Source: Prevotella sp. (GTDB lineage: Bacteria > Bacteroidota > Bacteroidia > Bacteroidales > Bacteroidaceae). Taken from it: a stretch of DNA of 49,656 bases. The DNA is taken from contig JAFZIL010000070.1 in NCBI GenBank assembly GCA_017554385.1, positions 1 through 49,656 of the forward strand, given 5' to 3'. This document shows, one piece after another, positions 7,645 to 26,233 of this stretch (position 1 is the stretch's first letter; each line of letters begins with the position of its first letter). The notes beneath the pieces were generated by a model. It ran no database searches and had not been told where the DNA came from. It was given only the letters and a program-made list of their open reading frames with translations. The position numbers and the translations under genes were made by a program.

Positions 7645-7647
7645 CAA

Positions 7648-10145: not shown

Positions 10146-10185
10146 AACTAAAGACCATAATCGGTTACCAATACCTAAAAATGAG

Positions 10186-10246
10186 GATGCCGACATTGAT
10201 GCCGACATTGATGCCGACAATGATGCCGACAATGATGCCCGACAAG
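10186..10246 (+). repeat. 12-bp tandem repeat, about five copies
   Basis: GATGCCGACATT occurs at 10186 and 10198, GATGCCGACAAT at 10210 and 10222, then a degenerate unit at 10234. It sits in the 339-bp gap between feoAB and the sigma factor. Apart from the two divergent promoters the gap holds nothing else I can recognise. An open frame through the repeat (10108-10320) gives a DADIDADN peptide that I do not regard as a gene. Confidence 0.9.
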
Positions 10247-10308
10247 TGGCAAAAAGCAGGGGGAAAAGAGGAAAATGCAGTCAAAATAACATTTTTTCTG
10301 ATTTTTTC

Positions 10309-10339
10309 TTGGCATTTTAAATTATAATGCCTACTTTTG
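10309..10339 (+). promoter_or_regulatory. Promoter of the ECF sigma gene
   Basis: TTGG (10309-10312), about 19 bp, then TACTTTTG (10332-10339); the ATG follows after 86 bases. Confidence 0.7.
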
Positions 10340-10425
10340 CAAGCGAAATATTCATTTAATAACTCACAAACTTAAACTTTATTGCCTATCGAAAAAGATT
10401 TACTCCATCAAAAAAAGTAAATGAA

Positions 10426-11028: not shown

Positions 11029-11057
11029 CCACTTATACCACCAAGGAATAAACAAAA

Positions 11058-11093
11058 CATTGACCACTGTCCCACCAAGGACAATGGTCAATG
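11058..11093. terminator. Bidirectional hairpin between convergent genes
   Basis: CATTGACCACTGTCC (11058-11072) pairs with GGACAATGGTCAATG (11079-11093), 15 bp with one mismatch and a 6-nt loop, between the sigma factor gene and the convergent small secreted protein gene. Confidence 0.75.
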
Positions 11094-11120
11094 CCACATA
11101 ACTTCAAGTGTTCGAAGACT

Positions 11121-11456
11121 TTATTCTCCAGTAGGAATAGCACCACCATTGAGACGGGCAGCTTTCTCGGCAGCCTTCTCCGACTTCTCGGCAGCCTTCT
11201 TGGCTGCCTTTTGTGCATCTTCAGCCTTCTTTGCCATCTTATCGGCATACTTCACAGCCTTCTCGGCGGCAATCTTTGCCTTCTGGGCATCCTTGACGGC
11301 TTTCTCCTTCTCCTTCTGAATCTTAGTAGCCTCCTTCAGCTCCTTGGCACTCATCTGAGAAGCATCCTTAGCTGTCACTACATCCTGTGCATTTACATGC
11401 TGAGCGCCCAGCAGACATACAGCTGCCATAGCGCAAATAGTCAACATTCTTTTCAT
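11121..11456 (-). CDS. Small secreted Ala/Lys-rich coiled-coil protein
   Basis: From ATG 11456 the 111-residue product has a signal peptide (MKRMLTICAMAAVCLLGAQHVNA-Q). It is followed by a long charged helix made of AEKAVKYADKMAKKAED-type heptads with almost only Ala, Lys, Glu and Gln, then a short tail LNGGAIPTGE. I do not recognise a family. The composition suggests a periplasmic coiled coil. It has its own promoter at 11488-11519 and is convergent with the sigma gene. The in-frame extension upstream would run into the promoter, so it was rejected. Confidence 0.8.
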   Translation of the reverse strand: MKRMLTICAMAAVCLLGAQHVNAQDVVTAKDASQMSAKELKEATKIQKEKEKAVKDAQKAKIAAEKAVKYADKMAKKAEDAQKAAKKAAEKSEKAAEKAARLNGGAIPTGE

Positions 11457-11487
11457 ATTCGTTACAATTTTGATTAGTAAAACCGTG

Positions 11488-11519
11488 CAAAGATACACAT
11501 TTTCAATCTAACAAACAAA
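11488..11519 (-). promoter_or_regulatory. Promoter of the small secreted protein gene
   Basis: On the minus strand TTTG (11519-11516), 20 bp, then TATCTTTG (11495-11488), 31 bases before the ATG. Confidence 0.8.
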
Positions 11520-11575
11520 ATTTCTTGCCAAATATTTTTTTTTCGGGAGTATTGAATAAAAAAAGCTGGCAAACA

Positions 11576-11607
11576 TTTGCTAATATGATAAACATTGTGT
11601 AAATTTG
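11576..11607 (+). promoter_or_regulatory. Promoter of the capD-like gene
   Basis: TTTG (11576-11579), 20 bp, TAAATTTG (11600-11607), 63 bases before the ATG at 11671. It is divergent from the promoter at 11488-11519. Confidence 0.8.
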
Positions 11608-11670
11608 CACACTACAAGAAAGGGAAAAGGATTTTTCACCCCCCCATTTAACAGAATTTAACTATCCACT

Positions 11671-13590
11671 ATGGAGCTATTCGATAAAGTCTTGAATTGG
11701 TACTTCACAAGGAACTCGCTTCCCTACTGGTGTATCCTTCTTTTAGACAGTATAATTATATTCTTCTCTGGAATCACTACATACTGGGCATTCTACCGTG
11801 GAGTAGCCACTTTGTCAAACTTCACACCACTGACGTTGACAATGATGCTCTACATTATTATTAGTTGTGTAGGATTCCGACTATTCAGGACTTACTCGGG
11901 CATCGTTCGCTATTCTTCGTTTGTCGACCTGCAAAGGGTGGCTATGGCCAACGTCATTTCAATGATACTTGTCATTGCTGTCAACGTTGTTTTCATTCGG
12001 CCGTCGGCTCATAGCAGCCTTGTCCACCTCTACGTCAGCCATATCGTACTGATATACATCATTGCCACTGCTCTGATGTGGGCCATACGCGTATTGGTGA
12101 AACTGCTTCACGACGTAACCACTATCAACAAGCGCGCCAAGCGCACAATGGTTTACGGCATCAACGAGGGAGGCGTAGGACTGGCCAAGAACATCAGAAT
12201 GCAGAACCCATTGCAATTCCAGCTAAAGGGATTCATATCCCATGAGCCAGGACACAAGCACCACGTTCTGATGGGTGAGCGTGTATATGAGGTTGACGAA
12301 CATCTGACTGAGGTCATCAAGGATCTGCGCATCGAAGCTGTGCTCGTGTCGCCCATGCGCAACAAGGAATTCCGCAACGATCAGGCACTGCAGGATATGC
12401 TCATCAACGCCGGCGTGAAGATCTACATGATGGAGAACGCCAAGGAATGGAATGCTAAGACCTCAGTACATATCAAGTCGGACATGCTGAAAGAGGTGAG
12501 TGTGGAAGACCTCCTGCCCCGCGAGGAAATTGAGATTGATATGGATTCCGTTGGCAAGCAGCTGAAAGGACACCGCATTCTCATTACCGGTTCTGCCGGC
12601 TCAATCGGCAGCGAAATGGTGCGCCAGATAGCACAGTTCAAACCCGCGGCTCTGATGCTTATAGACCAGGCAGAGACACCTCAGCACGACATACGTCTGA
12701 TGATGTCAAAGGAATGGCCCGACATTCCCTGCGAAACGATAGTCACCAGCATCTGTAAGGCGAAGCGCATGGAGCACATCTTCGACAAGTTCCGTCCCGA
12801 ATATGTCTTCCATGTAGCTGCCTACAAGCACGTACCCATGATGGAGGATAATCCCTGCGAAAGTATCCAAAACAATGTCTACGGAACAAAAGTCATTGCC
12901 GACCTGAGCGTAAAATACGGTGTAAAGAAGTTTGTGATGGTTTCAACCGACAAGGCTGTGAACCCCACCAACGTGATGGGTTGCTCCAAGCGCATTTGCG
13001 AAATCTACGTCCAGTCGCTGAACAAGACAACCTCCACGCAGTTTGTCACCACACGTTTCGGCAATGTGCTTGGTTCCAACGGCTCGGTCATCCCCCTGTT
13101 CCAAGAGCAAATCAAGAATGGCGGCCCTGTCACCGTGACCCATCCCGACATCATCCGCTATTTCATGCTTATCCCCGAAGCCTGCAAGCTGGTACTTGAA
13201 GCAGGCACAATAGGCAATGGTGGAGAGATCTTCGTCTTCGACATGGGTAAACCCGTGCGCATCGCTGACTTGGCCCAACGCATGATTAAACTGAGTGGCA
13301 AGAAGGGTGTGAAGATTGAATTCACTGGACTCCGCAACGGTGAGAAACTCTACGAGGAAATGCTGAGCGACAAGGAGAACACCAAGCCCTCGTTCCACAA
13401 GAAGATACGCATTGCCAACGTACGTGAATATGATTTCAACACGGTTAGCAAGGATATTAACGAGCTCATCGAACTAAGCAACAACTACGACGACCTTGCT
13501 GTAGTAAAGAAGATGAAAGAAATCGTGCCCGAATTTATTTCCAACAATTCGGTATTCAGTTCGCTTGACAAGGAAAAAGAGAATAAATAG
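11671..13590 (+). CDS. CapD/FlaA1-type membrane nucleotide-sugar 4,6-dehydratase
   Basis: The 639-residue protein has four N-terminal membrane helices (about residues 18-150) and a first Rossmann-like domain (VYGINEGGVGLAKNI). The catalytic SDR domain follows, starting at LKGHRILITGSAGSIGSEM with VAAYKHVPMMEDNP, VSTDKAVNPTNVMGCSKR and TRFGNVLGSNGSVIPLF. This is the WbpM/CapD layout, which converts UDP-GlcNAc-type sugars to 4-keto-6-deoxy intermediates for surface glycans. The family usually reads GASKR where this protein has GCSKR. It is not inside a visible capsule locus, but sugar genes (glycosyltransferase, rfbC, ugd) occur elsewhere in the window. Confidence 0.92.
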   Translation: MELFDKVLNWYFTRNSLPYWCILLLDSIIIFFSGITTYWAFYRGVATLSNFTPLTLTMMLYIIISCVGFRLFRTYSGIVRYSSFVDLQRVAMANVISMILVIAVNVVFIRPSAHSSLVHLYVSHIVLIYIIATALMWAIRVLVKLLHDVTTINKRAKRTMVYGINEGGVGLAKNIRMQNPLQFQLKGFISHEPGHKHHVLMGERVYEVDEHLTEVIKDLRIEAVLVSPMRNKEFRNDQALQDMLINAGVKIYMMENAKEWNAKTSVHIKSDMLKEVSVEDLLPREEIEIDMDSVGKQLKGHRILITGSAGSIGSEMVRQIAQFKPAALMLIDQAETPQHDIRLMMSKEWPDIPCETIVTSICKAKRMEHIFDKFRPEYVFHVAAYKHVPMMEDNPCESIQNNVYGTKVIADLSVKYGVKKFVMVSTDKAVNPTNVMGCSKRICEIYVQSLNKTTSTQFVTTRFGNVLGSNGSVIPLFQEQIKNGGPVTVTHPDIIRYFMLIPEACKLVLEAGTIGNGGEIFVFDMGKPVRIADLAQRMIKLSGKKGVKIEFTGLRNGEKLYEEMLSDKENTKPSFHKKIRIANVREYDFNTVSKDINELIELSNNYDDLAVVKKMKEIVPEFISNNSVFSSLDKEKENK

Positions 13591-13613
13591 CAAAGGCAAG
13601 CTCCATCCGTCAT

Positions 13614-13666
13614 TCGTTCACAGCACCGCACTGTGCCATTGGTTACTCGTTCACAGCACCGCACTG
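13614..13666. repeat. 20-bp direct repeat duplicating the 3' end of the adjacent gene
   Basis: TCGTTCACAGCACCGCACTG occurs at 13614-13633 and again, 33 bp away, at 13647-13666. The second copy is the coding end (CGAVNE) of the minus-strand zinc-ribbon gene; the first is just beyond its stop. Confidence 0.85.
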
Positions 13667-14635
13667 CGGACAGACACCTTTCTTATGCAGGTGGGCACCG
13701 CAGGCTCCACAGACATAACGGCGGCTATCATGGCGCAGATAACGCCAAATGGCCAGCACCACATAGGCTACCAACAAGGGGTAGCCTATATAGTATAAGG
13801 TGGTCAGGCTGAACACCACATAGTTTAGGGCGCACACACCAGCAAGTCCCAGCATATATACAACGGCTTCGCCTAACGGCAGACGGCGGCGTACATCGTC
13901 GACCGTCGAGATGGCGATGATGACAATCAGCCACACCGATAGGAGGAAAAGGCCCAGATGAAGGGGTACGTCAAAGGGATTCAGCGTGGGATGATAATAG
14001 TAATGTCGCCAAGATTCAGGTGCAAACAATTGAATAGTACTGTAGAATACCGCAGCCGCAGCCACACTGATGGCCAGCATCGATGGATAGAAGGAGTCGA
14101 TGTCGTTAAGATGGACAAGCTTGGCATTGCGTTTCAATAGGTGCATGATGACATACGACGCAACTACCACTGCCAACACTGCCAGGAAGATCAGCATGTG
14201 GGTGTCGGAGAAGAAATCGATGAAACGAGAGATGGGAGTATCAGGGGCAACACTGCCCAGCAGTTCGCATTCGTGGGTCCAACCTATAGTCTCCTGATCG
14301 CGTGCCACCTTCACCCAGACAGAATCGAGCGAGTCAGTGGGCATCTTTGTAATATCAGCCACCACAAGGTGGTCACCATGCTTCACACTAATAGTATCTA
14401 CCAATAACCCGCTAACTGCCTCGCTGGGATGCTGTACGATAAGTGCCAACGAGTCGCCCTTCACCACGAAATTGAAGTTCTCGGTATAATGATGTGTGGT
14501 ATAGAAGGAGATGGAGTCGACCTGACGGTCAGTCAGAATCCAGGCATCCGACGTCTGGGGACCTTGTTGGTAACAGGATACCAACAGCCACAGTAAAGGC
14601 AACCACAGGTAATTAGCAATCTTCAGCATAGACAT
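13643..14635 (-). CDS. Membrane lipoprotein with C-terminal cytoplasmic zinc ribbon
   Basis: The 330-residue protein starts with a lipoprotein-like signal (WLLVSC, Cys21) and a periplasmic domain of about 125 residues resembling an SH3-type fold (DSVWVKVARDQETIGWTHECELLG). Five membrane helices (about 145-300) follow, then a zinc ribbon CGACGAHLHKKGVCPQCG at the very C-terminus. A lipid-anchored N-terminus plus polytopic core plus cytoplasmic zinc ribbon is unusual. No named family is recognised. The start overlaps the upstream U32 gene by 23 bp; ATG 14629 is an alternative start. It closes the long minus-strand block that contains several other zinc-ribbon proteins. Confidence 0.82.
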   Translation of the reverse strand: MSMLKIANYLWLPLLWLLVSCYQQGPQTSDAWILTDRQVDSISFYTTHHYTENFNFVVKGDSLALIVQHPSEAVSGLLVDTISVKHGDHLVVADITKMPTDSLDSVWVKVARDQETIGWTHECELLGSVAPDTPISRFIDFFSDTHMLIFLAVLAVVVASYVIMHLLKRNAKLVHLNDIDSFYPSMLAISVAAAAVFYSTIQLFAPESWRHYYYHPTLNPFDVPLHLGLFLLSVWLIVIIAISTVDDVRRRLPLGEAVVYMLGLAGVCALNYVVFSLTTLYYIGYPLLVAYVVLAIWRYLRHDSRRYVCGACGAHLHKKGVCPQCGAVNE

Positions 14636-16442
14636 TCATTTGACATTGACGGCAATCGAACTCCAGCCGAAAACGACGTCCATCACCTAATTTCAGGTAC
14701 AACGGTTCGCGCCAAGCGGGTTTCTTTCCACCATGCTTCACACAGAATCCCAACGAGAAACGCAGACAATGGCGGCACTGCATCAACAGCAAGGGTTCAG
14801 AAGGCTTTCTTACCTCGAAGGCATCTTCCGCATCAGCAACACCCTGCAGCTTGTAGTATGCACGTGCTTCATCGTTGGCTATATTATATAAAAAGGTACG
14901 CGCGTAGGAAGGTGGCGTCTCTGGCATAACTGCGGATGCCTCGCACTCCATCTGACGGTTTGTACGAACAGCAGCAAGTGAAGCCTCGACCACCCTTCTT
15001 CGCATCTCGGTCAGCTGACTGCTCGGGATAAAATAGTTGAAATCATCAGGCAGCACCACTTCCGCACATTCGTAGGGAGTGCCGCCAAGCTTAGACAGTT
15101 GTCGAACAATATTCTCGCGCTGCGGCGTCTTGCTGACAGCGTGTTCCATCAGCATTTCTATACTCACCCCATCCATTGAGAGCCGGAAACCGTCGCTGGT
15201 CTCCGTTAGTTCCATCGTCACGGGAATCTTCCTCACGGCAGTGGTACGTGAAAGCATCTTGTCGAACTCCTGATCATTATTGCGATAGAGGCGCATCCCT
15301 TGTCGCAGCGTTTGGGGTGTCTTCAAAAGGAAGAGCCTATTGCCCTCAACCCTATTCACGCGAAAGCCCTCCAACTCGCGCTGTTGATTTAGGAAGCAGA
15401 GTCCGTCACCGTTGGAGAAACGGGCAATACCCGCTACACTCACTGAGTTACCCCTGATGTCCTTTACCGTTCCCACATACTCTCCGATGGCCTTGGGTGT
15501 GTCGAAAGAGGCAATGTCCTGCTGACGGCCATGTAGGAAATAGGTGGTGTAGCCACGATTAAAGCTCTTTATGAGATCAGGTTTGAAAGTATATTCACAG
15601 TGTCCCCTTGATGCCCTCCGATACTCGGAAGGATGACGCGCAATGATGCTGTCCAACTGCTGACTGTATGCCGCCGTGACATTCTTCACGTATGAGAGGT
15701 CTTTCAGGCGTCCTTCAATTTTGAATGAAGCAGCACCAGCCTTAACCAGTTCTTCAAGGTGCGCCCATTGGTTCATGTCCTTCAGCGAGAGCAAATGACG
15801 CTGATGCTCTACCATACGGCCATCAGCATCGGTCAGGTCGAACTTCATCCGGCAGAACTGTGCACACTCCCCTCGGTTGGCACTTCGCCCGAAGCAATAC
15901 TGCGACGCATAGCACAGTCCGCTATAGGAGACGCAGAGGGCACCGTGAACAAACACTTCGAGCTCTGTCTGCGGTACCTCTTGATGAATAGCTGCTATCT
16001 CATCGAGCGTCAACTCACGCGCCAGTACCACCCGTTTGAAGCCCTGAGCTGTCAGCCATCGAACTTTCTGGACAGTACGGTTATCCGTCTGGGTCGAAGC
16101 ATGTAGCGCAAGTCCTAAGCTTGGATGCTCCCGCACATAGCGGGCAACGGCCATATCCTGAACGAGCACGGCATCGGCCTTCGCCTCGGCCAACTGCTCC
16201 AACAAACGATAGGTATCTTCAAGTTCATCGTTGTAGACAATAGTGTTGACCGTAACATAGACGCGGGCACCGAACTGATGGGCATAGTCGCACAGATGGC
16301 GTATGTCGTCGACGCTATTACCCACAGCCGCACGGGCTCCGAAGCGTGGTGCTCCAATATATACAGCGTCGGCTCCGTGATCGATGGCGGCCACGCCACA
16401 CTCCAGATTCTTGGCAGGTGCCAGCAGTTCCAGTGTCCTCAT
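14613..16442 (-). CDS. rlhA: U32 peptidase-family protein, RlhA/YdcP-like 23S rRNA hydroxylation factor
   Basis: The 609-residue protein begins RTLELLAPAKNLECGVAAIDHGADAVYIG, a TIM-barrel start shared by U32 proteins. It carries the U32 signature ELEVFVHGALCVSYSGLCY followed by the cysteine cluster SQYCFGRSANRGECAQFCR, which in relatives holds an iron-sulfur cluster. The long C-terminal part, ending in two further cysteine pairs (CRHC...GFC, CRQC), matches the long RlhA type rather than TrhP/UbiU. RlhA hydroxylates C2501 of 23S rRNA in E. coli. It begins 9 bases after metA. Assignment to RlhA rather than another U32 clade is by length and architecture. Confidence 0.88.
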   Translation of the reverse strand: MRTLELLAPAKNLECGVAAIDHGADAVYIGAPRFGARAAVGNSVDDIRHLCDYAHQFGARVYVTVNTIVYNDELEDTYRLLEQLAEAKADAVLVQDMAVARYVREHPSLGLALHASTQTDNRTVQKVRWLTAQGFKRVVLARELTLDEIAAIHQEVPQTELEVFVHGALCVSYSGLCYASQYCFGRSANRGECAQFCRMKFDLTDADGRMVEHQRHLLSLKDMNQWAHLEELVKAGAASFKIEGRLKDLSYVKNVTAAYSQQLDSIIARHPSEYRRASRGHCEYTFKPDLIKSFNRGYTTYFLHGRQQDIASFDTPKAIGEYVGTVKDIRGNSVSVAGIARFSNGDGLCFLNQQRELEGFRVNRVEGNRLFLLKTPQTLRQGMRLYRNNDQEFDKMLSRTTAVRKIPVTMELTETSDGFRLSMDGVSIEMLMEHAVSKTPQRENIVRQLSKLGGTPYECAEVVLPDDFNYFIPSSQLTEMRRRVVEASLAAVRTNRQMECEASAVMPETPPSYARTFLYNIANDEARAYYKLQGVADAEDAFEVRKPSEPLLLMQCRHCLRFSLGFCVKHGGKKPAWREPLYLKLGDGRRFRLEFDCRQCQMNVYAEDC

Positions 16443-16451
16443 CGCTCGCGA

Positions 16452-17369
16452 CTACTCAATCATGTTAATGTCATAAGGCGTTGCCTGATAGACATAGTAG
16501 TTAATCCAATTGCTGTAGAAGAGATTAGCATGTGCACGCCAAGTGACCTTCGGTCCCTGGGCAGGGTCATCGTCCCGATAATAATTATAGGGTACACTGA
16601 CATCAGAGCGTATGTCACGGTCGCGCTTGTACTCATTGTCGAGCGTGTTGGGGGCATACTCCAGATGTCCGGTGATGAAGAACTCGCGACCTCCGCGCGC
16701 CATCACGATACTAACTCCGCTTTGTGGCGACTCGGCAATCAGCGACAGTTCCTCATGCTTCTCGATATCGGCACGTCTGATTTCTGAATGACGGCTCTGC
16801 GGCATCATGAACTTGTCGTCGAAGCCACGGAAGATGGGCAGACGCGGGAAGAGAATGTCCTGCTCATAGATACCGAACATCTTCTGGTCAAGCTGATGCT
16901 TGGGCACACCATAATAATAATACAATCCTGCCTGAGCCGCCCAGCAGATGTAGAGCGTACTGGTAACGTGATTACGGGCCCATTGGAATATCTCGGTAAT
17001 CTCGTCCCAGTATTTCACCTGCTCGTATTCCATCTGCTCGACAGGTGCACCGGTGATAATCATACCATCGAACTTCTGCTTGCGAAGCTCCTCAAAGTCG
17101 CGGTAAAACATCATCATGTGTTCGATAGGCGTATGACTGGGCGTATGGCTCCTGAGTTTCATGAAGCACACCTCTATCTGCAGCGGCGTGTTCGAGAGGA
17201 GCCTGATAAGGTCGGTTTCGGTGGTAATCTTGATGGGCATGAGGTTCAACACCACAATGCGAAGCGGACGTATGTCCTGTGAGTGAGCACGCGTGTCGTC
17301 CATCACGAAGATGTTCTCACGCTTCAGCAGCTCAATGGCCGGTAGTTGGTCGGGAAGTCTTAAAGGCAT
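16452..17369 (-). CDS. metA: MetA homoserine O-acyltransferase, predicted acetyl-CoA type
   Basis: The 305-residue protein has all MetA landmarks: MPLRLPDQLPAIELLKRENIFVM at the start, catalytic Cys142 in YICWAAQAGLYYYYG, and His235 and Glu237 in FFITGHLEYA. Residue 111 is Glu (TGAPVEQMEYE). In published work on this family Glu111 favours acetyl-CoA and Gly111 succinyl-CoA, so O-acetylhomoserine is the predicted product despite the usual name homoserine O-succinyltransferase. It commits homoserine to methionine. It lies 45 bases after the PP2C gene and 9 before rlhA, so it may be read through from the signalling cassette. I see no SAM riboswitch upstream. Confidence 0.95.
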   Translation of the reverse strand: MPLRLPDQLPAIELLKRENIFVMDDTRAHSQDIRPLRIVVLNLMPIKITTETDLIRLLSNTPLQIEVCFMKLRSHTPSHTPIEHMMMFYRDFEELRKQKFDGMIITGAPVEQMEYEQVKYWDEITEIFQWARNHVTSTLYICWAAQAGLYYYYGVPKHQLDQKMFGIYEQDILFPRLPIFRGFDDKFMMPQSRHSEIRRADIEKHEELSLIAESPQSGVSIVMARGGREFFITGHLEYAPNTLDNEYKRDRDIRSDVSVPYNYYRDDDPAQGPKVTWRAHANLFYSNWINYYVYQATPYDINMIE

Positions 17370-17414
17370 CTATTATCTAATTGAATAAAGAATTACAATA
17401 AAAAAAGCATCTGA

Positions 17415-18179
17415 TTATTGGGCGGTAGCTGTCATACGTGCCACTATAGCTGACACATTGTCGTAGCCGCCCGCCTCCTCGGCAGCAAGGCACAATGCCT
17501 CGGCACTGCATCCTTCAATCAGCAAGCGCTGCAAAGTGGCGTCGTCGAGCATGTCGCTAAGTCCGTCGCTACAGATGAGAACGGTATCGCCCAGATGCAG
17601 GTCACCAGTACACTGCACCATGTCGATGTAGCTGTTCTTGCAGCCGCCGCCAATACAGTTGGTGATAATACTGCAGTGCTCGGGATTGCCAATGAGACTG
17701 TTCAGCGAGTGGTCGGTTGTCAGCTGCTGTAGCTTACCTTCATGCATCAGATAGAGCCGGCTGTCGCCACAGTTTAAACTATAGAACTGTCTGTCATAGT
17801 AAGCGAGTGCCACCAAAGTGGTACCCATTCCCTGACATGCAGGGTCTACATGTCCTCTTGACTCAATGATATTATTAATACTGGAGAGCCACTCGCAGAT
17901 AGCCTCGTTCAAGCTACCCGGAGAGAGCTGTGCAGGGATGTCGCTGAAGAAGAACTGCAGGTTGTGCAGCACTTCGCTGCTGGCCACATCACCGCTCCGA
18001 TGCCCGCCCATACCGTCGGCGAGAGCCAGAAGAAAGCGGTCGACACCGTCAAGCGGCACCTGCATCTCTATCTTGTCATCGCGCACGAAGCGGTCGCCAA
18101 CAAGCAGCATATCCTCGTTGTGTTCCCTGACGCAGCCGGTATTACTTGCTGCCGTAATGGTCAAATCGAACATGGACAC
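17415..18179 (-). CDS. PP2C-family Ser/Thr protein phosphatase
   Basis: The 254-residue cytoplasmic protein carries every metal-binding motif of the PPM/PP2C fold: VREHNED (residues 17-23), ALADGMGGH (about 52-60), GMGTTLVAL, NCGDSRLYL, ICSDGLSDML and GGYDNVSAIV. It should remove phosphate from Ser/Thr on targets of the kinase encoded three genes upstream. ATG 18173 is an alternative start. It begins 24 bases after the FHA gene on the same strand. Kinase plus PP2C plus FHA in one operon is a standard reversible phospho-signalling set. Confidence 0.94.
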   Translation of the reverse strand: MSMFDLTITAASNTGCVREHNEDMLLVGDRFVRDDKIEMQVPLDGVDRFLLALADGMGGHRSGDVASSEVLHNLQFFFSDIPAQLSPGSLNEAICEWLSSINNIIESRGHVDPACQGMGTTLVALAYYDRQFYSLNCGDSRLYLMHEGKLQQLTTDHSLNSLIGNPEHCSIITNCIGGGCKNSYIDMVQCTGDLHLGDTVLICSDGLSDMLDDATLQRLLIEGCSAEALCLAAEEAGGYDNVSAIVARMTATAQ

Positions 18180-18203
18180 AATTTTTCTATATTAATATCG
18201 GGG

Positions 18204-18776
18204 TTAATCAATGCTCACCTCTAAGTTCACATTGGCAATGGTAACAATGTCGCCGTTCTTCAGCGACATGTCGACATCGGGTTGCAACAGCCGCTCGTTC
18301 AGCTTCGTGCCATTCGACGAATGTTTGTCGGTAATGCACCAGCCAGTCCCTGCGTTATATTTCAGCTGTGCATGTACACCCGATACATACAGGTTCTGCG
18401 TGAAAAATTCAGCGTAAGGTCCCTGCTTACGACCAATGATGGCACCATTGACACCTTTGATACGTATATTTAGCGCACCATTGTATAGCAGCAATGAAGG
18501 CATTTCAACAGGTATTGCCTGCTGTTCCTGCCCGGTGGGATAAGTTTTGCTGAACTCCTGCGAAACGGAACCTGTCGAATCTGACGACGAGAACGACGTC
18601 TGCTCCTGGTTATGTTTCAGCTTGTCTGGTGTAACCATCAGACCTCCACACGATGTGCAGCGACGCCCAATGCCTACCCTTCCGCATCTGTCACAATAGA
18701 GCAAGGATTGTCCACACTGGTCACAATAGTGCGAATCATCATCAATTTCTTCTCTGCAATTCGGACAAACTATCAT
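18204..18776 (-). CDS. Zinc-ribbon/FHA domain protein
   Basis: The 190-residue protein opens with CPNC...CDQCG (residues 4-21) and CDRCG...CTSCG (29-43), a double zinc ribbon. After a polar linker of about 50 residues comes an FHA domain (about 97-190) with the canonical phosphothreonine-binding signature IIGRKQG, YVSGVHAQL and DKHSSNGTKL. FHA domains bind phosphothreonine peptides, so this is the likely reader of the kinase in the same operon. It lies 51 bases after the AAA+ gene. The C-terminus KNGDIVTIANVNLEV fits the end of the FHA fold. Confidence 0.93.
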   Translation of the reverse strand: MIVCPNCREEIDDDSHYCDQCGQSLLYCDRCGRVGIGRRCTSCGGLMVTPDKLKHNQEQTSFSSSDSTGSVSQEFSKTYPTGQEQQAIPVEMPSLLLYNGALNIRIKGVNGAIIGRKQGPYAEFFTQNLYVSGVHAQLKYNAGTGWCITDKHSSNGTKLNERLLQPDVDMSLKNGDIVTIANVNLEVSID

Positions 18777-18827
18777 AATATGGTCATTGACAATTTACAT
18801 TTTTGTTATCTGCTCACCTGCTTTGCA

Positions 18828-21800
18828 TCAGCCTTCGGGAATATCCTCGGGTAGGATTAGCTGGTAGGTTTCCTTGGTCACCTGTTCGGATGGCATCTGC
18901 GACACTCGCACCGAGACGTGCTCAATGGTCTTGTCGAGCAGGTTACGCATCTCACGTGCATTACCGAACGACTCATTTTTAGCCACAATCATCTTGCTGA
19001 TGGTATCACGCAATTTCGACTCGGCAGGCGGCGAAACGACGTACTGTTCCTTCTGTGCCATTTTCGTGAAGATGGCAAACAGTTCGTCTTCATTGTAGTC
19101 ATCGATGTGCAGCTTATGGGTGAAGCGGCTTGCCAGTCCTGCATTCATCTGAAGGAACTCCTCCATCTTATCCTTGTAGCCAGCAGCGATGACCACGAAC
19201 TTGCCGCGGTCATCCTCCATGCGCTTCATCAGCGTATCAATAGCCTCCTTGCCATACTGGTCGTTCTGATCACTGAGGGTATAAGCCTCGTCGATAAAGA
19301 GGATGCCTCCCATTGCCTTGTCGCACATCGAGTTGACAATCTTCGGTGTCTCGCCCATGTACTTGCCCACGAGGGTTGCCCTGCTTGCCTCAATGACGCG
19401 GGCCGTTGGCAACACATCCATCGACTGCAACACCTCGCCCATCTTACGCGCTATTGATGTCTTTCCAGTACCGGGGTTACCGGTGAGCACGAAGTTCATT
19501 GCCATCTGCTGCACATTGCCGGCGCCTACGGCTGCACGCTGCTTCATGAACATGCTCTGTACGGCCAACCTTCGGATAGCGTTCTTCACCGAACGCATAC
19601 CGATAAACTCATCGAGCTCGTTGAGCACCTCGTCGACGGGACGTGCAGCAGTGCTCTGCTCCATAGGCAGATCGGCAATCGACAATCGGTACATATCCTC
19701 AAAGAGGAAGCCGTCGGCCTCGTCGTCGCACACCATCACGTCGGGTGCATTCATCTTGGCAACGAGGCGCTGGCTCTGTCTTTCGACCGTCTCATCGAAA
19801 ATGCGGCGAGCTTCACGCGCATTTCCGAAGTTTTTGTCGCGCCGCAGATACAACTGCTCAAACATGCGATGTATGGCTCCACGCATGTCATCATCGATGG
19901 TGAACTTCTTGCCCGCAGCCATGTTGAGGAATATCTGGGTGAGCTCGTCGGGGGTGTAGTCCTCGAAGTGGATGGTCTGCGTAAAGCGGCTCTTCAATCC
20001 GGGATTCGAGTCAATGAAATCGTGCATCTGCTCGGTATATCCGGCCACGATACAGATGAACTTTCCGCGGTCATCCTCCAGTCGCTTCAGCAGGGTGTCA
20101 ATGGCTTCACTACCAAAAGCATCGCTGTCGTTCGAGCGCAGGGTGTAGGCCTCGTCGATAAAGAGTACGCCACCCATGGCCGAATCTATCAGCTGATTGG
20201 TTTTGATGGCCGTCTGTCCGCTATATCCAGCCACAAGGCTTGAGCGGTCGGCTTCGACGAGTTGTCCACGTGTCAGGATGCCCAGCGTCTTGAACACCTC
20301 GGCCATGATGCGTGCAACAGTGGTCTTACCAGTACCGGGGTTACCCGTGAACACATAGTGCTTACCAAGGAAGGTCGCCGTCTCTCCACGCTTGATCTGC
20401 AGATTGAGGTAGGCTGCCAGATTAGCTATTTCCTTCTTCACAGCATCAAGACCCACAAGACCGTCGAGACGCTTCAGACACTCGGTATAGTCGACCTCGC
20501 GCGGTGCCTCGTAGGGCACATCTTCTTCCTCGAAGGTCATCAGCTGCTCGGTGGTCATCTGAGTGAGTCCGGCATTCTGCAATCGCTGCGCCTGCTTCTT
20601 ACACATCTGGTCGAAGAGCGAGCGCATGGTACGTCCGTTGGCAAAGTTCTTGTCGCGCGTCTTGTAGAGTTGCTCTATCATGTGCTTTGTCAGTGCCAGG
20701 GCCTTCTCCGAGAAGAGGTACTTCTTCTCGTTGGCAAAGACCTGCATAATCTGGAAGAGCTCCTCGGGGTTGTAGTCCTCGATGTTGAGGAAATAGTTGA
20801 ATCGGCTACGCATTCCAGGGTTCACGCGGAAAAGGTTGTCCATCTCTTTCTGGTAACCGGCAGCAATAACCACGAACTTGTCGCGGTCGTCCTCCATGCG
20901 CTTCATCAGTGTCTCCAATGCCTGTGCACCCTGATTGTCGCGCTCACCGCTCTGGCTGACGGGTGCCAACGTGTAGGCCTCGTCGACGAAGAGTATGCCA
21001 CCCATGGCCTTGTCGCAAAGGCGACCTACGACCTTCGGCGTCTCGCCCTGATAGGGGCTGACCATCTGCGAGCGGTCGACCTCGACCACATGTCCACTGT
21101 CTAAGTAGCCGATGGCGGCAAGAATCTCGCCAAGCTTGCGGGCAATGGTGGTCTTACCTGTACCGGGATTACCGGTGAGCACGATGTGCATGCCCATTTT
21201 CTGCTGCTCGCCCAATCCGCGCTCTGCTCGCTGTATGCTGTTCTGCACCGTGTAGGCAATCTCGCGCACAGCGTCCTTCACCTCCTTCATGCCAATAAAG
21301 CTGTCGAGGTCGGAGAGGATGCTCTCAAGCGAGCGTTCCTCGGGTACATAGCCCTTGATGTCGTCTATCTCTACCTGTGCAGCATCACCACCTCGGCTGA
21401 TGAACGAGCTGAAGATATCCTCGGCAGTCTTTGTAGCCAGATGGGCATTGCCAAAGCTCTCGTCCTTGATTTTTATCTGATACTTGAAGTAACGGGTCAG
21501 TTGCTTGTCAGCCTCTTCCGAGAAGGTGTTGATACCGTAGCGGTTGTCGAGTATCTGCTTCACAATCTCGCACAGTTCCTTGTAGCCGTAGGTGGGCAGA
21601 CGGAAAGTGTACTTGAAGCGGTTCTTCACTGCGGGGTTACTCTCAAGGAAATCCTCAAGACCCTTGGGCAGTCCGGCAATGATAACGATGGGGTTGCCGT
21701 CCCACTTGTCCATTTCGACGAAGAGCTTGTCGAGTGGGTTCACCTGATTCGAGTACTTGTCGGGCAGCAACTTCTGCACATTGTCGAAGAATAAGATGCC

Positions 21801-22172
21801 GTCATGGGCTTTCTCAATGTTATCGTCCCAATTCTCAACGAAACGCTGGTAGTCAACGGCATCGACCATTGTGAGTTTGGGCTTGGCAATGATTTTCTGC
21901 TGATAGAAATAGTCGCGGATGATTTCTGCGAGCGAGGTCTTACCAGTACCGGTCTCTCCAATTATTACGACGTTTATCGAGAGCCTTACGACCGAGATAT
22001 CCTTGCGCGAGCGCAGATAGGTATAGGTGTCGACAATGCTCTTCAGCTGTGCCTTCACCTCAGCCTGTCCAATCATTTTCTCAAGCAGGTTCTGGTTGGA
22101 GATGGGCTTTCCGCACCATTTGCAGAACTTTGCAATCGAGCGGTTTCCTTTATGACAATATTCGCAAATCAT
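18828..22172 (-). CDS. Zinc-ribbon protein with four CbbX/SpoVK-type AAA+ modules
   Basis: The 1114-residue protein starts with a zinc ribbon (Cys3, 6, 17, 20) and then has four AAA+ modules. Module 1 has Walker A GETGTGKTS (72-80) but a weak Walker B ending FFDN (128-131) with Asn in place of the catalytic Glu. Modules 2, 3 and 4 have GNPGTGKT at 334, 610 and 898 and DEAYTL at 397, 673 and 961, each followed by SRF (arginine-finger region) and a C-terminal helical lid with NFANGR or FGNAREAR. Modules 2-4 resemble CbbX, SpoVK and the EccA ATPase of type VII secretion. Most relatives have one to three modules. The role is probably remodelling of a protein target. It is 38 bases downstream of the kinase gene. 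Confidence 0.9.
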   Translation of the reverse strand: MICEYCHKGNRSIAKFCKWCGKPISNQNLLEKMIGQAEVKAQLKSIVDTYTYLRSRKDISVVRLSINVVIIGETGTGKTSLAEIIRDYFYQQKIIAKPKLTMVDAVDYQRFVENWDDNIEKAHDGILFFDNVQKLLPDKYSNQVNPLDKLFVEMDKWDGNPIVIIAGLPKGLEDFLESNPAVKNRFKYTFRLPTYGYKELCEIVKQILDNRYGINTFSEEADKQLTRYFKYQIKIKDESFGNAHLATKTAEDIFSSFISRGGDAAQVEIDDIKGYVPEERSLESILSDLDSFIGMKEVKDAVREIAYTVQNSIQRAERGLGEQQKMGMHIVLTGNPGTGKTTIARKLGEILAAIGYLDSGHVVEVDRSQMVSPYQGETPKVVGRLCDKAMGGILFVDEAYTLAPVSQSGERDNQGAQALETLMKRMEDDRDKFVVIAAGYQKEMDNLFRVNPGMRSRFNYFLNIEDYNPEELFQIMQVFANEKKYLFSEKALALTKHMIEQLYKTRDKNFANGRTMRSLFDQMCKKQAQRLQNAGLTQMTTEQLMTFEEEDVPYEAPREVDYTECLKRLDGLVGLDAVKKEIANLAAYLNLQIKRGETATFLGKHYVFTGNPGTGKTTVARIMAEVFKTLGILTRGQLVEADRSSLVAGYSGQTAIKTNQLIDSAMGGVLFIDEAYTLRSNDSDAFGSEAIDTLLKRLEDDRGKFICIVAGYTEQMHDFIDSNPGLKSRFTQTIHFEDYTPDELTQIFLNMAAGKKFTIDDDMRGAIHRMFEQLYLRRDKNFGNAREARRIFDETVERQSQRLVAKMNAPDVMVCDDEADGFLFEDMYRLSIADLPMEQSTAARPVDEVLNELDEFIGMRSVKNAIRRLAVQSMFMKQRAAVGAGNVQQMAMNFVLTGNPGTGKTSIARKMGEVLQSMDVLPTARVIEASRATLVGKYMGETPKIVNSMCDKAMGGILFIDEAYTLSDQNDQYGKEAIDTLMKRMEDDRGKFVVIAAGYKDKMEEFLQMNAGLASRFTHKLHIDDYNEDELFAIFTKMAQKEQYVVSPPAESKLRDTISKMIVAKNESFGNAREMRNLLDKTIEHVSVRVSQMPSEQVTKETYQLILPEDIPEG

Positions 22173-22210
22173 TATGCGCTTTTATGTTTGGTTATATTCA
22201 TTCAGTGGTT

Positions 22211-25099
22211 TTACAGGCAGTGCAGCAGCAACATGACGATAAGCAGCAACACCATGAAACTCCATTCCAAGTAGTGGATAACCGATTCGCCTGCAAAAGA
22301 GTTCACCTGGTTGTCGACATCGTCAAGAAGTCCGAACTTCGAGCCGCTGTAGCGCGCCGACTTGGTTCTAAACGTATAGTAGAGTGGATCGAGAAGCGAG
22401 GTGTTCACGTCGTCGGTCTTCACCACATCGTCCACGAAGTTCTTGTCGCTGTGGCGGTCTCTACTGTAGTCAGTTCGGTGACACACGTAGACGTAGGCAA
22501 GCGTGAGCATAATGATGACCACCGATGAGAGCATGGGCACCGATGCAGCCACAAACTTCAGGATATAGACGGGTATAAGAGAGGACAACAGGCCCAAGGC
22601 TCCCCAAAGCAGCGACATACTGGAACCATAGCCGCGGAAGTAGGCACGTGTGCCCATAATGACGGCACTCATGCCGCCCACGGGTAGCAGTACGGCAACG
22701 TAGGGGTGCTGTGCCACATAATCGATGACCTCCCTGCCGAAGACCACGACCAGCAGTACCCAAAGGATGCTGAAGCCATAGAAAATATAGCGCATGATGC
22801 GCTCACGGTTGTAGGCGTCCATCCACCGTTTCCTCACGTAGGACGTACGGTCGCGTGTCTCCTGGCAGGCACGATTGTATCGGAAGAAGTACTGGTGATG
22901 CTCGTCAAACTTTCCGATGGTCTCAAGCCACTGGGCAAGTGCCCGCTCGTAACTGTACGACTCGGTGAAGTCGCGTGTGGGGTCTTCGTGATAGAACACG
23001 GTGAGCCACTGCGCAAGGGCGCCCCCACGTATCTCGTCATGTATCTGCGATGCGAGCTGCGAGGTGAGCTGACGACTGTCGGTGAGCACCTGTCCGTTGG
23101 GCAGCAGGTAACCTGGCGTGGTGCCGAGGATGCGGCAGAAGCGATACATGGCCGTGCGCAGGTCGTAGACGCCCAGGCGGTCACGATTCTCAGGCGATTT
23201 AAGGTCGAAGCAACGGCGTGCCTCTTCCTGCAGGCCACCCCAGCCATGTATCTGTGCATAGTAGGCAAAACGTCCGTCGGGCGACGAGATGTCGGCCATC
23301 GTCTTCTCGAAGTCGGCAGCCGGAACATGTTCCAGCTGCATGAGACGCTGGGCGATGACCTCGCCCACGGCCTCGGGTGTCGATGCCTCGCGCAGGTCAT
23401 AGGCAGCCTCACGGTCGAGATTGTAGATCACCTTATAGGCCAGCGATTCTGAGTAAGGCTTTCCCTCGATCAGAATGCGTGTCGATTCGCAGGCCATAAC
23501 GTCTTCGTGGGCATACATCCACGAGAGCAGACGCCCGTCGGTGAGCGAATGCCAGTCGTCGTCGGTGAGATTTGAGTGGCCAAACGAGTAGAATATCTCG
23601 TCGAGCGTCATCGATGGGTGGCGCCCCAAGAACGGTATGTCAGGATCAATCTCGAACACCATGCGCATGACGGCCACGTGGGCATCGGCGTCGGGCTTGA
23701 AGTAAGAGCGCAGGCGGTCGATGTTGCACTTCGTGTGGACGTCGAGCCACAGGAAGAGGTCGTCGTTGGGGTCCTGCAACTTCATGGCGTAGATATCCTG
23801 GTTGCTGAGCAATGCGAGCGAGATGGTGTGCACGTCGTCGCAAAGGTTTCCTTTGATGTCCTTATATGGATAGGTAGGCTCCATAGCATATACGGCTGCC
23901 ATGAGGCCCGCCCTCGAGTTGGCGGGAAACTTGTTCGACACGATGTCCTTGACCACGGCCGTGAGCTTCTGGTTGCCGCACGACTCCAGCCAGTTGGCTA
24001 TGCGACCGCTGTAGAGGTAGTTGATGGCCAGTCGCTCGTTGTCGATGAGCATGGGTATGAGCTCATGCAGGTTGTTGGCCACAAGGTTGCGCTCAGGGTC
24101 GACGATGAAGCTCTTGTAGCGAAGGGCTGCCGACGAGAGGTCGACCTTCACATCCTCGCCCTTGAACCAGCGCTCCACCTCGTCGTAGGTCCATCGTCCC
24201 TCGACATTGACGGCGGTAAGTCCCTGAACGATGCGCTTCACGCTCTCGGGCAGCTCACCGAGCCGGGGCAGACGGCCCTCGTTCTTCTGCTTCATCATGT
24301 TGCGCTCGTTCGAGCTCAGGGGCGTCTCGCCCAACCACAGTGCCAGCAGCGTGATGCCCAGCGAGTAGTAGTCGGCAGCAGCCGAAATCTCAACCTCGCC
24401 GTCAATCACGTCGGCATACATCTCGGGAGCGGCATAGATGGGCGTACGTGCCTGAGTGGTACGTACGAGCCCCGTCTTGGGATCGAGAAACGACGAGATG
24501 CCGAAGTCGCCCAGCACCAACTCCTTGTGACCCTTGTCGCGGAAGAAGAAGTTGGTGGGCTTCACGTCCTTGTGCAGGATGTTGTAGCGGTGGCAGTAGG
24601 CCAGCGCGGCCGCCGCCTGAAGTGCCAGGCGACGGAACTGGTTCAAGTCGTTGCCGAGCTTGAAGTCATGCAGCGTGCCGCCCTCCAGATACTCCATCAG
24701 CTCGTAATAGCGGTACTTCGCATCGACGTAGGTCTTGCCGTAGTCGATGAGGTTGACTATCATCTCGAAGTGGAACGAACGGATGACCTGTAGCAGCTTC
24801 TTGTTCACCGTGAAGTTGGGGTAGTAGACCTTCAGCACGTACTCCTTGCCGTCGTGGTAGACGAGGAACACCTGTGCCTCGCCCGAGTTGTCGCTCAGGC
24901 AGCTGACCTTTTCATAACGCTCACCTTTCAAGACGAACACGTTGTCGTCGGTGACCTGCATGGATTGGGGAGCGGGAGCAGAAGCGACCTTCAGCGTGTG
25001 CTGCGTAGCGTCGTCCGTAGACGGCAACGCAATGGTACGGTCGCCTCCTACTGGTATCGGAGCCGGCATCGGGCCTTCAAGCTTGAGTGTCTTGTCCAT
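22211..25099 (-). CDS. Transmembrane eukaryotic-type Ser/Thr protein kinase
   Basis: The 962-residue protein has an N-terminal kinase domain (about 60-310): glycine-rich region near 69-77, Lys90 in YVLKVYY, HKDVKPTN (176-183), DFG (198-200) and APE (224-226). HKD instead of HRD is seen in many active kinases. A large helical region of about 430 residues without recognised domain follows. Four or five membrane helices come next (about 765-880), with a final helix at the extreme C-terminus. No PASTA repeats or periplasmic sensor domain are visible. Before the kinase, three short T-[LI]-[KA]-[LV] motifs (Thr4, Thr22, Thr35) could be FHA docking sites. It lies between the zinc-ribbon scaffold and the AAA+ gene. 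Confidence 0.92.
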   Translation of the reverse strand: MDKTLKLEGPMPAPIPVGGDRTIALPSTDDATQHTLKVASAPAPQSMQVTDDNVFVLKGERYEKVSCLSDNSGEAQVFLVYHDGKEYVLKVYYPNFTVNKKLLQVIRSFHFEMIVNLIDYGKTYVDAKYRYYELMEYLEGGTLHDFKLGNDLNQFRRLALQAAAALAYCHRYNILHKDVKPTNFFFRDKGHKELVLGDFGISSFLDPKTGLVRTTQARTPIYAAPEMYADVIDGEVEISAAADYYSLGITLLALWLGETPLSSNERNMMKQKNEGRLPRLGELPESVKRIVQGLTAVNVEGRWTYDEVERWFKGEDVKVDLSSAALRYKSFIVDPERNLVANNLHELIPMLIDNERLAINYLYSGRIANWLESCGNQKLTAVVKDIVSNKFPANSRAGLMAAVYAMEPTYPYKDIKGNLCDDVHTISLALLSNQDIYAMKLQDPNDDLFLWLDVHTKCNIDRLRSYFKPDADAHVAVMRMVFEIDPDIPFLGRHPSMTLDEIFYSFGHSNLTDDDWHSLTDGRLLSWMYAHEDVMACESTRILIEGKPYSESLAYKVIYNLDREAAYDLREASTPEAVGEVIAQRLMQLEHVPAADFEKTMADISSPDGRFAYYAQIHGWGGLQEEARRCFDLKSPENRDRLGVYDLRTAMYRFCRILGTTPGYLLPNGQVLTDSRQLTSQLASQIHDEIRGGALAQWLTVFYHEDPTRDFTESYSYERALAQWLETIGKFDEHHQYFFRYNRACQETRDRTSYVRKRWMDAYNRERIMRYIFYGFSILWVLLVVVFGREVIDYVAQHPYVAVLLPVGGMSAVIMGTRAYFRGYGSSMSLLWGALGLLSSLIPVYILKFVAASVPMLSSVVIIMLTLAYVYVCHRTDYSRDRHSDKNFVDDVVKTDDVNTSLLDPLYYTFRTKSARYSGSKFGLLDDVDNQVNSFAGESVIHYLEWSFMVLLLIVMLLLHCL

Positions 25100-25123
25100 G
25101 TATCTGTCTTTATTGCTATTTCC

Positions 25124-26128
25124 TTACTTATCATCCTTGATCTCTTGTTTCGACCCGTGACCCAACACGACCCACTTGCCACCAAGTTGTGGCTTGGCAC
25201 AACCGCAGGGGCTGGAGTGCATAGCGTGCTTATAGTTGCATAGCCAGGCAAGCCTGAGGCCCTGAGGTTTCTGGGCCATTGCGTAATTACGCACCTGGGC
25301 AGGCTTAGGATTGGCAGGGACGGGTATGCGCTCAAGCAGGTTGCTGATGCGCTCCATCACCTCTGCCTTGCGGGCGGCATGTTCTTCCTTCGACATGCGC
25401 TCTTCGCCTACGGGTGGTATGACCACGTTGACCACACCTGCATCCTGAGCCAACAGGCGCAGCACGCGCTGGCGCAACTCGTCGCACTTGCGGGCGGTCT
25501 TCACGTCCTCCTCGCTCTCAAAAGGCAGCTGCATCTGCAGTTCGTCCAACTCTTTCGCTGCCGCAGCCAACTCCTGGTACTCGGGCTTCATCTGCAACTC
25601 CCTCACCAACTGCGCTGCCTCCTCGGTGAGCGCCCGTCCACACTGCTTGCAGAAGGAGAACTCGTTCAGCGTGTGGCACGTGGGACACACAATGCCACCA
25701 CGCGGAGAACCGCACTCGGGACAGAAAGCATCTTGTTCCGAAAGGTGAGCACCGCAGAACGAACATGCACTGGTCGAGATGTAATGATGGCACGACTCGC
25801 AGAAGTCGGCATCGCCATCGAGCTCAGCACCGCAGTTGGGACAAGTCTGACGACGCAACACCTGGCCACAGGAGGCACAGTAGAGGCTTCCTGCATCGTT
25901 GGTAGCACCACAGTTGGGACATTTCACCGACTGCGCCTGCTGCTGGGCCTGTTGTTGCTGGGGCGACTGCTGAGTCTGCTGCTGAGTCTGCGACTGAGAC
26001 TGTAGCTGAGTCTGCGACTGAGGGGCACCGTCGTCGTTAGCCTCACGCAAACCTGCCGTGCTATCAAGTTGCTGCATCCCGGCCGACTGTCCAGGCATGC
26101 CACGGAGTGTCATATCGTCGTTTGTCAT
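25124..26128 (-). CDS. Multi-zinc-ribbon Gln-rich scaffold-like protein
   Basis: The 334-residue protein has a Gln-rich low-complexity segment (about 36-66), then four zinc ribbons in a row: CPNCG...CASCG, CPNCG...CESC, CSFCG...CPECG and CPTC...CKQCG. A charged helical segment follows, then a C-terminal region with WLCNYKHAMHSSPCGCAKPQLGGKWVVLG, where more cysteines may bind metal. No enzyme motif is present. It is the first gene of the signalling operon, directly behind the promoter at 26203, and ends 24 bases before the kinase. A scaffold or adaptor role is inference from position and composition. Confidence 0.82.
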   Translation of the reverse strand: MTNDDMTLRGMPGQSAGMQQLDSTAGLREANDDGAPQSQTQLQSQSQTQQQTQQSPQQQQAQQQAQSVKCPNCGATNDAGSLYCASCGQVLRRQTCPNCGAELDGDADFCESCHHYISTSACSFCGAHLSEQDAFCPECGSPRGGIVCPTCHTLNEFSFCKQCGRALTEEAAQLVRELQMKPEYQELAAAAKELDELQMQLPFESEEDVKTARKCDELRQRVLRLLAQDAGVVNVVIPPVGEERMSKEEHAARKAEVMERISNLLERIPVPANPKPAQVRNYAMAQKPQGLRLAWLCNYKHAMHSSPCGCAKPQLGGKWVVLGHGSKQEIKDDK

Positions 26129-26202
26129 CGGTTCGTTGAATTTATTGAATATATTCCGTTATTTTATGTTCGCTGTGTACCTATTTATATTTAAATCTCG
26201 TG

Positions 26203-26233
26203 CAAAAGTAAGCATTTTTTTTTATACAGCCAA
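26203..26233 (-). promoter_or_regulatory. Promoter of the zinc-ribbon/kinase/AAA+/FHA/PP2C operon
   Basis: On the minus strand CTTGG (26234-26230), about 19-20 bp, TACTTTTG (26210-26203). The ATG at 26128 follows after 74 bases. I see no other strong promoter until the end of the block at 13643, although gaps of 38-51 bp could hide weak ones. Confidence 0.65.

Follow-up and report, generated by a model that had tools for sequence, protein, structure and literature searches.

The window analysed here, a stretch of 49,656 nucleotides from a Prevotella sp. (GenBank assembly GCA_017554385.1, contig JAFZIL010000070.1, positions 1 to 49,656), sits on contig C67 of a 3.06-Mb draft genome which is 81% complete. 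It contains five adjacent genes on the minus strand, hereafter called the cassette, which encode in this order a four-zinc-ribbon protein, ZR4 (25124..26128, 334 amino acids; Pfam DZR/Zn_Ribbon), a membrane Ser/Thr kinase, KIN (22211..25099, 962 amino acids; Pfam Pkinase), a zinc-ribbon tandem AAA+ protein, AAA (18828..22172, 1114 amino acids; Pfam AAA with AAA_lid_6), an FHA protein consisting of an N-terminal double zinc ribbon, a linker and an FHA domain (18204..18776, 190 amino acids; Pfam FHA and DZR), and a PP2C phosphatase (17415..18179, 254 amino acids, GTG start; Pfam PP2C). From ZR4 to PP2C the genes are separated by 24, 38, 51 and 24 bp. A first-pass annotation, made from the sequence alone, had described five co-oriented genes with gaps of 24-51 bp, three of them coding for proteins with zinc ribbons; the positions of the open reading frames (ORFs) and the Pfam matches agree with this description and with its domain calls for all five proteins.

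A profile of the middle domain of KIN (residues ~310-760) was used as a family probe and identified 261 relatives in a collection of species genomes, the best 80 of which were kept and are here called Prevotella-type loci. Their record titles name Prevotella or Prevotellaceae, except for one 'uncultured bacterium' (L063), and many refer to ruminants. Gene sets were counted from scans of all ORFs, with score thresholds chosen by the analyst. All five genes were present in a single order and on one strand in 74 of the 80 Prevotella-type loci; four of the others are cut by a contig end, one has no PP2C gene (L070) and one holds KIN alone by these thresholds (L099). The complete loci include L081, from Prevotella aff. 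ruminicola Tc2-24, a carrier that can be cultured. Neighbouring genes overlap or abut in these loci, the median gaps being 0, -1, 3 and 14.5 bp. A further 24 loci were collected, of which L031 was left out as identical to L081 (100% identity in KIN), and all five genes were found in 14 of the 23 distinct ones, including loci of a second class of the phylum (families f17, f35, f59), while six are cut by contig ends. The middle domain of KIN from one of these loci (L142) has 25% identity with that of the window. The five genes are thus one evolutionary unit, and the co-occurrence in other genomes on which the first-pass annotation had made its reading depend was found. The distribution is patchy, with a near full-length match in 14/201 genomes of the family and presence in 7/395 genomes of the phylum, 6/80 of family f35, 5/79 of family f17 (where two matches are short or weak) and 8/391 of the second class. 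The search outside the phylum covered viral contigs, plasmids, probed with the KIN middle domain, and phages, probed with ZR4, and found no relatives. A plasmid search with the whole AAA protein returned 271 records, all below 60% identity, which were taken as generic AAA+ relatives.

A metA or U32 peptidase gene adjoins the cassette on its downstream side in 74/80 Prevotella-type loci, indicating a stable chromosomal place, and also lies downstream in L034, but was not seen in the other lineages fetched and was therefore rejected as part of the unit. Genes upstream of the cassette, coding for an M13 peptidase, an ABC-F ATPase and a LolA-like protein (L031) or for efflux proteins (L034, L037), were rejected likewise because the neighbours vary by lineage. 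No flanking family was seen to recur across lineages in comparisons made with the window's genes and by eye only, and no extra gene was common to the complete cassettes examined. The flanking genes were rejected as the output of the cassette because they differ between lineages. The first-pass description of it as having no known output stands.

Some lineages carry additional genes at the cassette. Proteins similar to SUKH/SMI1-KNR4 are encoded within or just behind it in the three f17 loci examined (L141 7288-8082, L144 4665-5198 and L145 10445-10966), the match in L144 being below the Pfam cut-offs. Two genomes of genus g132 have a long TPR protein directly before KIN (L164 356-5173, with an additional SAM domain, and L165 2756-6433). 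At L166 (4636-11215) KIN has only 549 amino acids and is followed by genes of 418 and 107 amino acids, and a repeat protein of 207 amino acids (YRIDKDTGEIKKVGWFTESYTG units) is encoded between AAA and the FHA protein. An ORF abuts ZR4 in the two g29 genomes examined (L040 15921-16934 and L041 630-1802); the L040 product looks like a membrane protein, and Pfam gave no match for it.

The kinase domain of KIN (24176..24877, residues 75-308) contains K90, D178, N183 and D198 of the DFG motif, all of them invariant in 14/14 KINs. For the middle domain which follows (22820..24172, residues ~310-760) there is no dedicated Pfam family, nor any match among PDB sequences. Hydropathy places three hydrophobic segments (residues 768-786, 849-867 and 944-962) in the C-terminal membrane part (22214..22798), and the same part has 3 to 5 such segments in eleven relatives. 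Since all the membrane segments come after residue 767, the kinase and middle domains are most likely cytosolic. The KIN of the window ends at its last hydrophobic segment, while some distant KINs extend up to ~360 residues further. In the FHA domain (18237..18440, residues 113-180), G115, R116, S132, H135, G156 and N160 are invariant in 10/10 sequences and N155 is nearly so, and the PP2C protein has kept the Asp motifs DG.GG, SDG and GG.DN, which are invariant in 9/9. Judged by these key residues, one operon would code for the writer, the reader and the eraser of phosphothreonine, as the first-pass annotation had proposed.

Related genes occur elsewhere in the window, in the same genome and in relatives. 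A second FHA protein (37733-38317, minus strand, 194 amino acids), which has no zinc ribbon match, is encoded directly behind an HU-CCDC81/SPOR-domain protein (38299-39432, minus strand), and the pair could be a DNA-to-envelope linker with a phosphopeptide reader. Another contig of the genome (L044, G000:C43:4001-24000) has at 5971-18756 a different array with four kinases, one of them fused to an FHA domain. The array also encodes a PP2C, a WG-repeat protein and two further proteins with FHA, one of which has a zinc ribbon. In relatives, six 20-kb stretches (L045-L050) contain two to seven kinase-like genes in an arrangement unlike the cassette, with a PP2C-like gene in 4/6.

The AAA protein begins with a zinc ribbon (22110..22166), the cysteines of which, C3, C6, C17 and C20, are invariant in 11/11 homologues. 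As annotated before, four AAA+ modules follow, but only modules 2-4 look catalytic. Modules 2-4 (18831..21302; residues ~291-563, 564-849 and 850-1114) have the motifs GNPGTGKT, DEAY, GY and N[AG]R. Module 1 (21303..22091) is degenerate: it has a P-loop (GETGTGKT), but its Walker B box (ILFFDN) has DN instead of DE, sensor 1 has GL for GY and sensor 2 has H for R. The Walker B DE of module 1 is missing in 22/22 AAA homologues from both classes (three of them cut), being replaced by DN in 16, DD in L040 and L041, SD in L042 and DS in L043, with no box found in L164 and L166, whereas the later modules of these 22 homologues have DEAY wherever it falls inside the sequence. Module 1 is, by its motif, unable to hydrolyse ATP, and the defect in all homologues of both classes indicates that a non-hydrolysing first module is a lasting property. 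Where no contig end truncates the chain, it contains three to five modules with a P-loop.

The AAA+ clade of SpoVK, CbbX and EccA is marked by a sensor-1 GY, a sensor-2 Arg and an Asn four residues before the first Arg finger, according to a preprint (PMC10659427). The AAA protein of the window has AGY at 438, 710 and 997 (modules 2, 3 and 4), and the sensor-2 Arg in the N[AG]R of the same modules, with H in module 1; upstream of the arginine of SRF, the Asn of N[PA]G is six residues away, and the position four residues away has R, K or A. Its score with the NCBIfam EccA model was 711 bits against a cut-off of 467, summed over the four modules. The preprint describes the proteins of this clade as dedicated chaperones whose N-terminal domains vary and may serve to recruit substrates: SpoVK activates MurG and CbbX rubisco, and EccA1 is linked to mycolic acid production (PMC10659427). 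A separate protein of 716 amino acids with one AAA_lid_6-type AAA+ domain is encoded on another short contig of the window's genome (L167, G000:C65, 1908-4058).

In ZR4 the four tandem zinc ribbons of the first-pass description (25640..25921, residues 70-163), with eight CxxC pairs between residues 70 and 160, are followed by a middle region and by a fifth, C-terminal zinc-type site (25199..25240, residues 297-310, C297..H304..C310) which that description had missed. C297, H304, P307 and C310 are invariant in 13/13 homologues, and the site reads CxxC in some distant ones.

The N-terminal tail of KIN (24929..25099, residues 1-57) is the region in which phosphoacceptor motifs are predicted, and in relatives it contains repeats of [DE]xT[IVLM]R. 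In a first set of 95/99 KIN tails (four not caught by the tail pattern were left out), 151 motifs were counted, compared with 1.4 in shuffled tails and 2 in the other 89,949 residues. With a wider tail pattern, which covered 102/104 tails (all except L164 and L165), there were 165 motifs, whereas shuffles gave 1.7 and the other 96,181 residues contained 3. The excess persisted when redundancy was removed at 70% identity (53 motifs in 39 tails, compared with 0.52 on average in 500 shuffles, of which the largest had 3, and 3 in the remaining 36,971 residues) or at 60% identity (35 motifs in 23 tails, compared with 0.26). At least one motif was present in 81/102 tails and at least two in 42, the range being 0 to 7, with seven in one KIN. 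Among the proteins called in the loci, 43 had at least two motifs and 41 of these were KINs. In L040 and L041 the N-terminus of KIN has DDVHATGKAVRGN repeated in tandem, a form of the threonine tail peculiar to that lineage.

The motif recurs in two other proteins of the cassette. ZR4 of the window starts with MTNDDMTLR and thus has the strict motif DMTLR, and 96 ZR4 tails contain 19 strict motifs compared with 0.6 in shuffles. In the second class, 6/8 FHA proteins end in the motif at their very last residues (e.g. LDKTVRI, TEKTVRI and GEKTIRV), followed each time by a final I, L or V. FHA domains prefer I, L or V at position pT+3, which the final residue of these proteins fits. That the motif recurs in three operon proteins and in two classes weighs more than the shuffle counts. 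The zinc ribbons may provide a common docking mode, as the first-pass annotation had suggested, but the tail motif is better supported as a docking device.

One clear promoter had also been annotated, and a candidate was indeed located upstream of ZR4 (26203..26233, minus strand), although not a clear one. It consists of TTGG (26230-26233), a 19-bp spacer and the box TACTTTTG (26203-26210), 74 bp from the ATG of ZR4. The box matches TAnnTTTG, the promoter box of the Bacteroidota type, and an equal match of box and TTGG was obtained in 34/1000 shuffles of the intergenic stretch. A sigma-70-type scan found no promoter upstream of ZR4; its 9 matches in the region, against 7.2 expected, are near chance, and the two on the minus strand are within the FHA and PP2C genes. 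A promoter before ZR4 is thus plausible but weak.

The gene set, its order and conservation, the intact catalytic and binding residues, the motif arrays and the degenerate first module, all directly observed, can be accommodated in one proposal, to which we give an even chance: the cassette would be a self-contained, membrane-anchored AAA+ chaperone machine which is assembled or gated by a phosphothreonine switch. KIN would be located in the inner membrane, with the kinase and the large middle domain on the cytosolic side. We infer that it would phosphorylate threonines in acidic-x-T-[IVLM]-R motifs within disordered tails of the cassette's own proteins, namely in KIN at its N-terminus (most lineages), in the FHA protein at its C-terminus (second class) and, less so, in ZR4 at its N-terminus (Prevotella). 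Binding of these phosphothreonines by the FHA domain would cluster KIN, the FHA reader and, via the zinc-ribbon proteins, AAA at the membrane. AAA would be a dedicated chaperone of the SpoVK/CbbX/EccA clade in which module 1 is dead and acts as a platform or an adaptor, while the other modules, two to four in number, would hydrolyse ATP to remodel one specific client, probably encoded outside the cassette, and PP2C would strip the phosphates and reset the machine. More tentatively, and with some doubt, the cassette may be a free-standing machine of its own kind, in which KIN would write several phosphothreonines along its own tail and, in the second class, along that of the FHA reader, where they would permit FHA proteins to chain head to tail; this phosphothreonine code would assemble and power a multi-module AAA+ chaperone with module 1 as a non-hydrolysing platform. 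If so, the numbers of tail motifs (0-7) and AAA+ modules (3-5) vary by species while the wiring is fixed.

Several observations weigh against the phosphothreonine-switched chaperone. The KIN tail of the window itself has no strict motif, only the weak forms DKTLK, DRTIA and HTLK, and the strict motif is missing from 21/102 tails and from 12/39 in the non-redundant set, although the L043 tail has a related array (TIRP, TIKP, TVKP, TIRP, TVRP). None of the 85 FHA proteins from the family of the window has the motif at its C-terminus. Since the motif was defined only once the tails had been inspected, the shuffle test is post hoc, and the match in the FHA tails was found later, also by eye; the counts are therefore descriptive and no proof alone. 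The sequence gives no direct tie between AAA and the FHA protein. Three of the 23 further loci are not cut by a contig end and yet have incomplete sets, L032 and L037 having no PP2C and L164 neither ZR4 nor PP2C. Clients were searched for in six second-class genomes with the DNA pattern D-[KNDE]-K-T-[IV]-R, which is narrow and misses some motifs of the cassettes; it gave 16 matches, 6 in cassettes and 10 outside, compared with 7 in a reversed control, and only three of the 10 outside were in frame in called ORFs, none of them as a terminal array.

The cassette might instead control an envelope or secretion machine whose genes lie elsewhere in the genome, as the threonine-phosphorylation pathway does in type VI secretion, with AAA acting on that machine as EccA does, and this we consider rather unlikely. 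Genes for a kinase, an FHA protein and a PPM phosphatase are found repeatedly in type VI secretion systems (T6SS) and, among type VII secretion systems (T7SS), in several of the types T7SSc-T7SSj (PMC11217815), KIN is a membrane protein by its hydropathy, and AAA exceeds the EccA cut-off as stated above. The Pfam scan covered 17 flanking and the five core proteins (22/51 ORFs of the window) and found no secretion gene among the flanking ones, as noted by the first-pass annotation, and the comparisons described above showed no flanking family that recurs across lineages. The T6SS protein TssC was found in 0/19 carrier genomes with PF17541, the single T6SS model used; other T6SS models, EccC/WXG100 and the type IX secretion system were not searched for genome-wide. 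Thirteen of these carriers have a completeness of 90% or more and a contamination of 5% or less, and the same model detected TssC in 15/201 genomes of the family. None of the 15 is among the 14 carriers in that family, where an overlap of ~1 was expected, so that the difference is not significant. A T6SS of the Bacteroidota type is thus not required, and the analogy with secretion drawn in the first-pass annotation, like secretion control in general, is not supported by the Pfam matches of the flanks or by TssC in the carriers.

The patchy distribution could also suggest a module of defence or conflict, comparable with kinase-based systems like KKP or MADS, whose kinase would become active upon infection and thereby trigger AAA. 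The kinase domain matches the MAD6 and PD-T4-6 models and AAA the IetA models, and SUKH-like proteins, which are common in conflict systems, accompany the cassette in the f17 loci. These matches are, however, limited to the shared kinase or AAA domain (79 bits for MAD6, the cut-off being 460), no toxin-like gene was seen, and the stable place next to metA or the U32 peptidase gene and the lack of relatives in the viral, plasmid and phage searches speak against it; we consider this explanation improbable. To much the same degree we doubt that AAA is a cell-envelope chaperone, as SpoVK is for MurG, with phosphorylation sensing envelope stress. Its client would then be a chromosomal enzyme, so no client gene would travel with the cassette, in agreement with the absence of an extra gene common to the complete cassettes examined; the membrane anchor and the precedents of SpoVK with MurG, CbbX with rubisco and EccA1 with mycolic acids (PMC10659427) also fit. 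The patchy presence fits an essential client poorly, and no extracytoplasmic sensor domain is visible in the KIN of the window, since it ends at the last hydrophobic segment. Every domain of the cassette is individually common, as would be expected of five separate genes that share a transcript and have no joint function, but the order and strand kept in two classes and the tail motif common to KIN, the FHA protein and ZR4 make this very improbable.

Ser/Thr phosphorylation has been little studied in Bacteroidota. Prevotella are dominant members of the rumen community, and the cassette is present in many rumen Prevotella. Its five genes would hold a writer, a reader, an eraser, a predicted phosphorylated motif and an ATP-driven effector, so the wiring can be tested in vitro without knowing the biology. 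The motif is nearly confined to the tails of cassette proteins and thereby supplies a set of candidate phosphosites and a means of looking for clients. If the proposal of a phosphothreonine-switched chaperone is correct, a chaperone of the EccA/SpoVK type is run by threonine phosphorylation outside a secretion system.

No description of the five-gene set, and no characterised system with the same genes, was found in a full-text literature search which covered titles, starts of abstracts and passages, and few subscription journals. One of the closest known systems is the threonine-phosphorylation pathway of T6SS, with the kinase PpkA, Fha and the phosphatase PppA. There, as proposed here, a membrane kinase, an FHA reader and a phosphatase act together, but the cassette has no T6SS genes in its scanned flanks and none of its 19 carriers has TssC by the one model applied; it adds a tandem AAA+ protein and a zinc-ribbon protein, and its motif array is on the kinase itself. 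In Agrobacterium, an FHA protein binds a phosphorylated membrane protein of the T6SS (PMC11217815). The T7SSc-T7SSj sets also include a kinase with a cytosolic N-terminal domain and a membrane segment, a PPM phosphatase and an FHA protein (PMC11217815), and AAA belongs to the clade of EccA from T7SSa, but no EccC/EssC or WXG100 was present among the 17 scanned flanking proteins of the window, the search not being genome-wide. EccA has TPRs at its N-terminus (PMC10659427), whereas that of AAA is a zinc ribbon, and each AAA chain contains three to five AAA+ modules. With the SpoVK/CbbX/EccA clade as a whole AAA shares the sensor-1 GY and sensor-2 Arg of modules 2-4, and it differs in its tandem modules on one chain, the degenerate first module, the zinc-ribbon N-terminus and the operon with kinase, FHA and PP2C genes. 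The legend of Fig. 3A in the preprint on this clade mentions operons and 'ZnBd', so an overlap with the cassette's operon type is possible (PMC10659427).

KKP likewise combines a Ser/Thr kinase with PP2C and an FHA domain, but it has two short kinases (gene-length filter 900-1300 bp) with FHA fused to a kinase (PMC11341870). In the cassette the only kinase gene is 2.9 kb long, FHA is on a separate protein, and an AAA+ protein is encoded as well; the KKP order of PP2C followed by two short kinases, of which one carries FHA and the other CSD, was not found, the one kinase having 962 amino acids and there being no CSD match. Actinobacterial GAP1-N2 conflict systems, with zinc-ribbon kinase, PP2C and vWA genes, have an active kinase, often with a zinc ribbon or TM helices, beside PP2C (PMC7159879). 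Unlike these, the kinase of the cassette carries no ribbon, and the scanned neighbours included no gene for a vWA, GTPase or GAP1 protein belonging to such a system, FeoB being the sole GTPase match. The TerY-P triad consists of a TerY-type vWA protein, a kinase and PP2C, and no vWA was found among the scanned ORFs of the window. The observation made in the first-pass annotation is thus confirmed and its interpretation partly supported. The parts list of the cassette resembles the control sets of T6SS and T7SS, defence modules and the actinobacterial sets and fails their defining features where tested; the cassette is best placed with the phosphothreonine-controlled modules, and there is a fair chance that it is a separate kind of machine.

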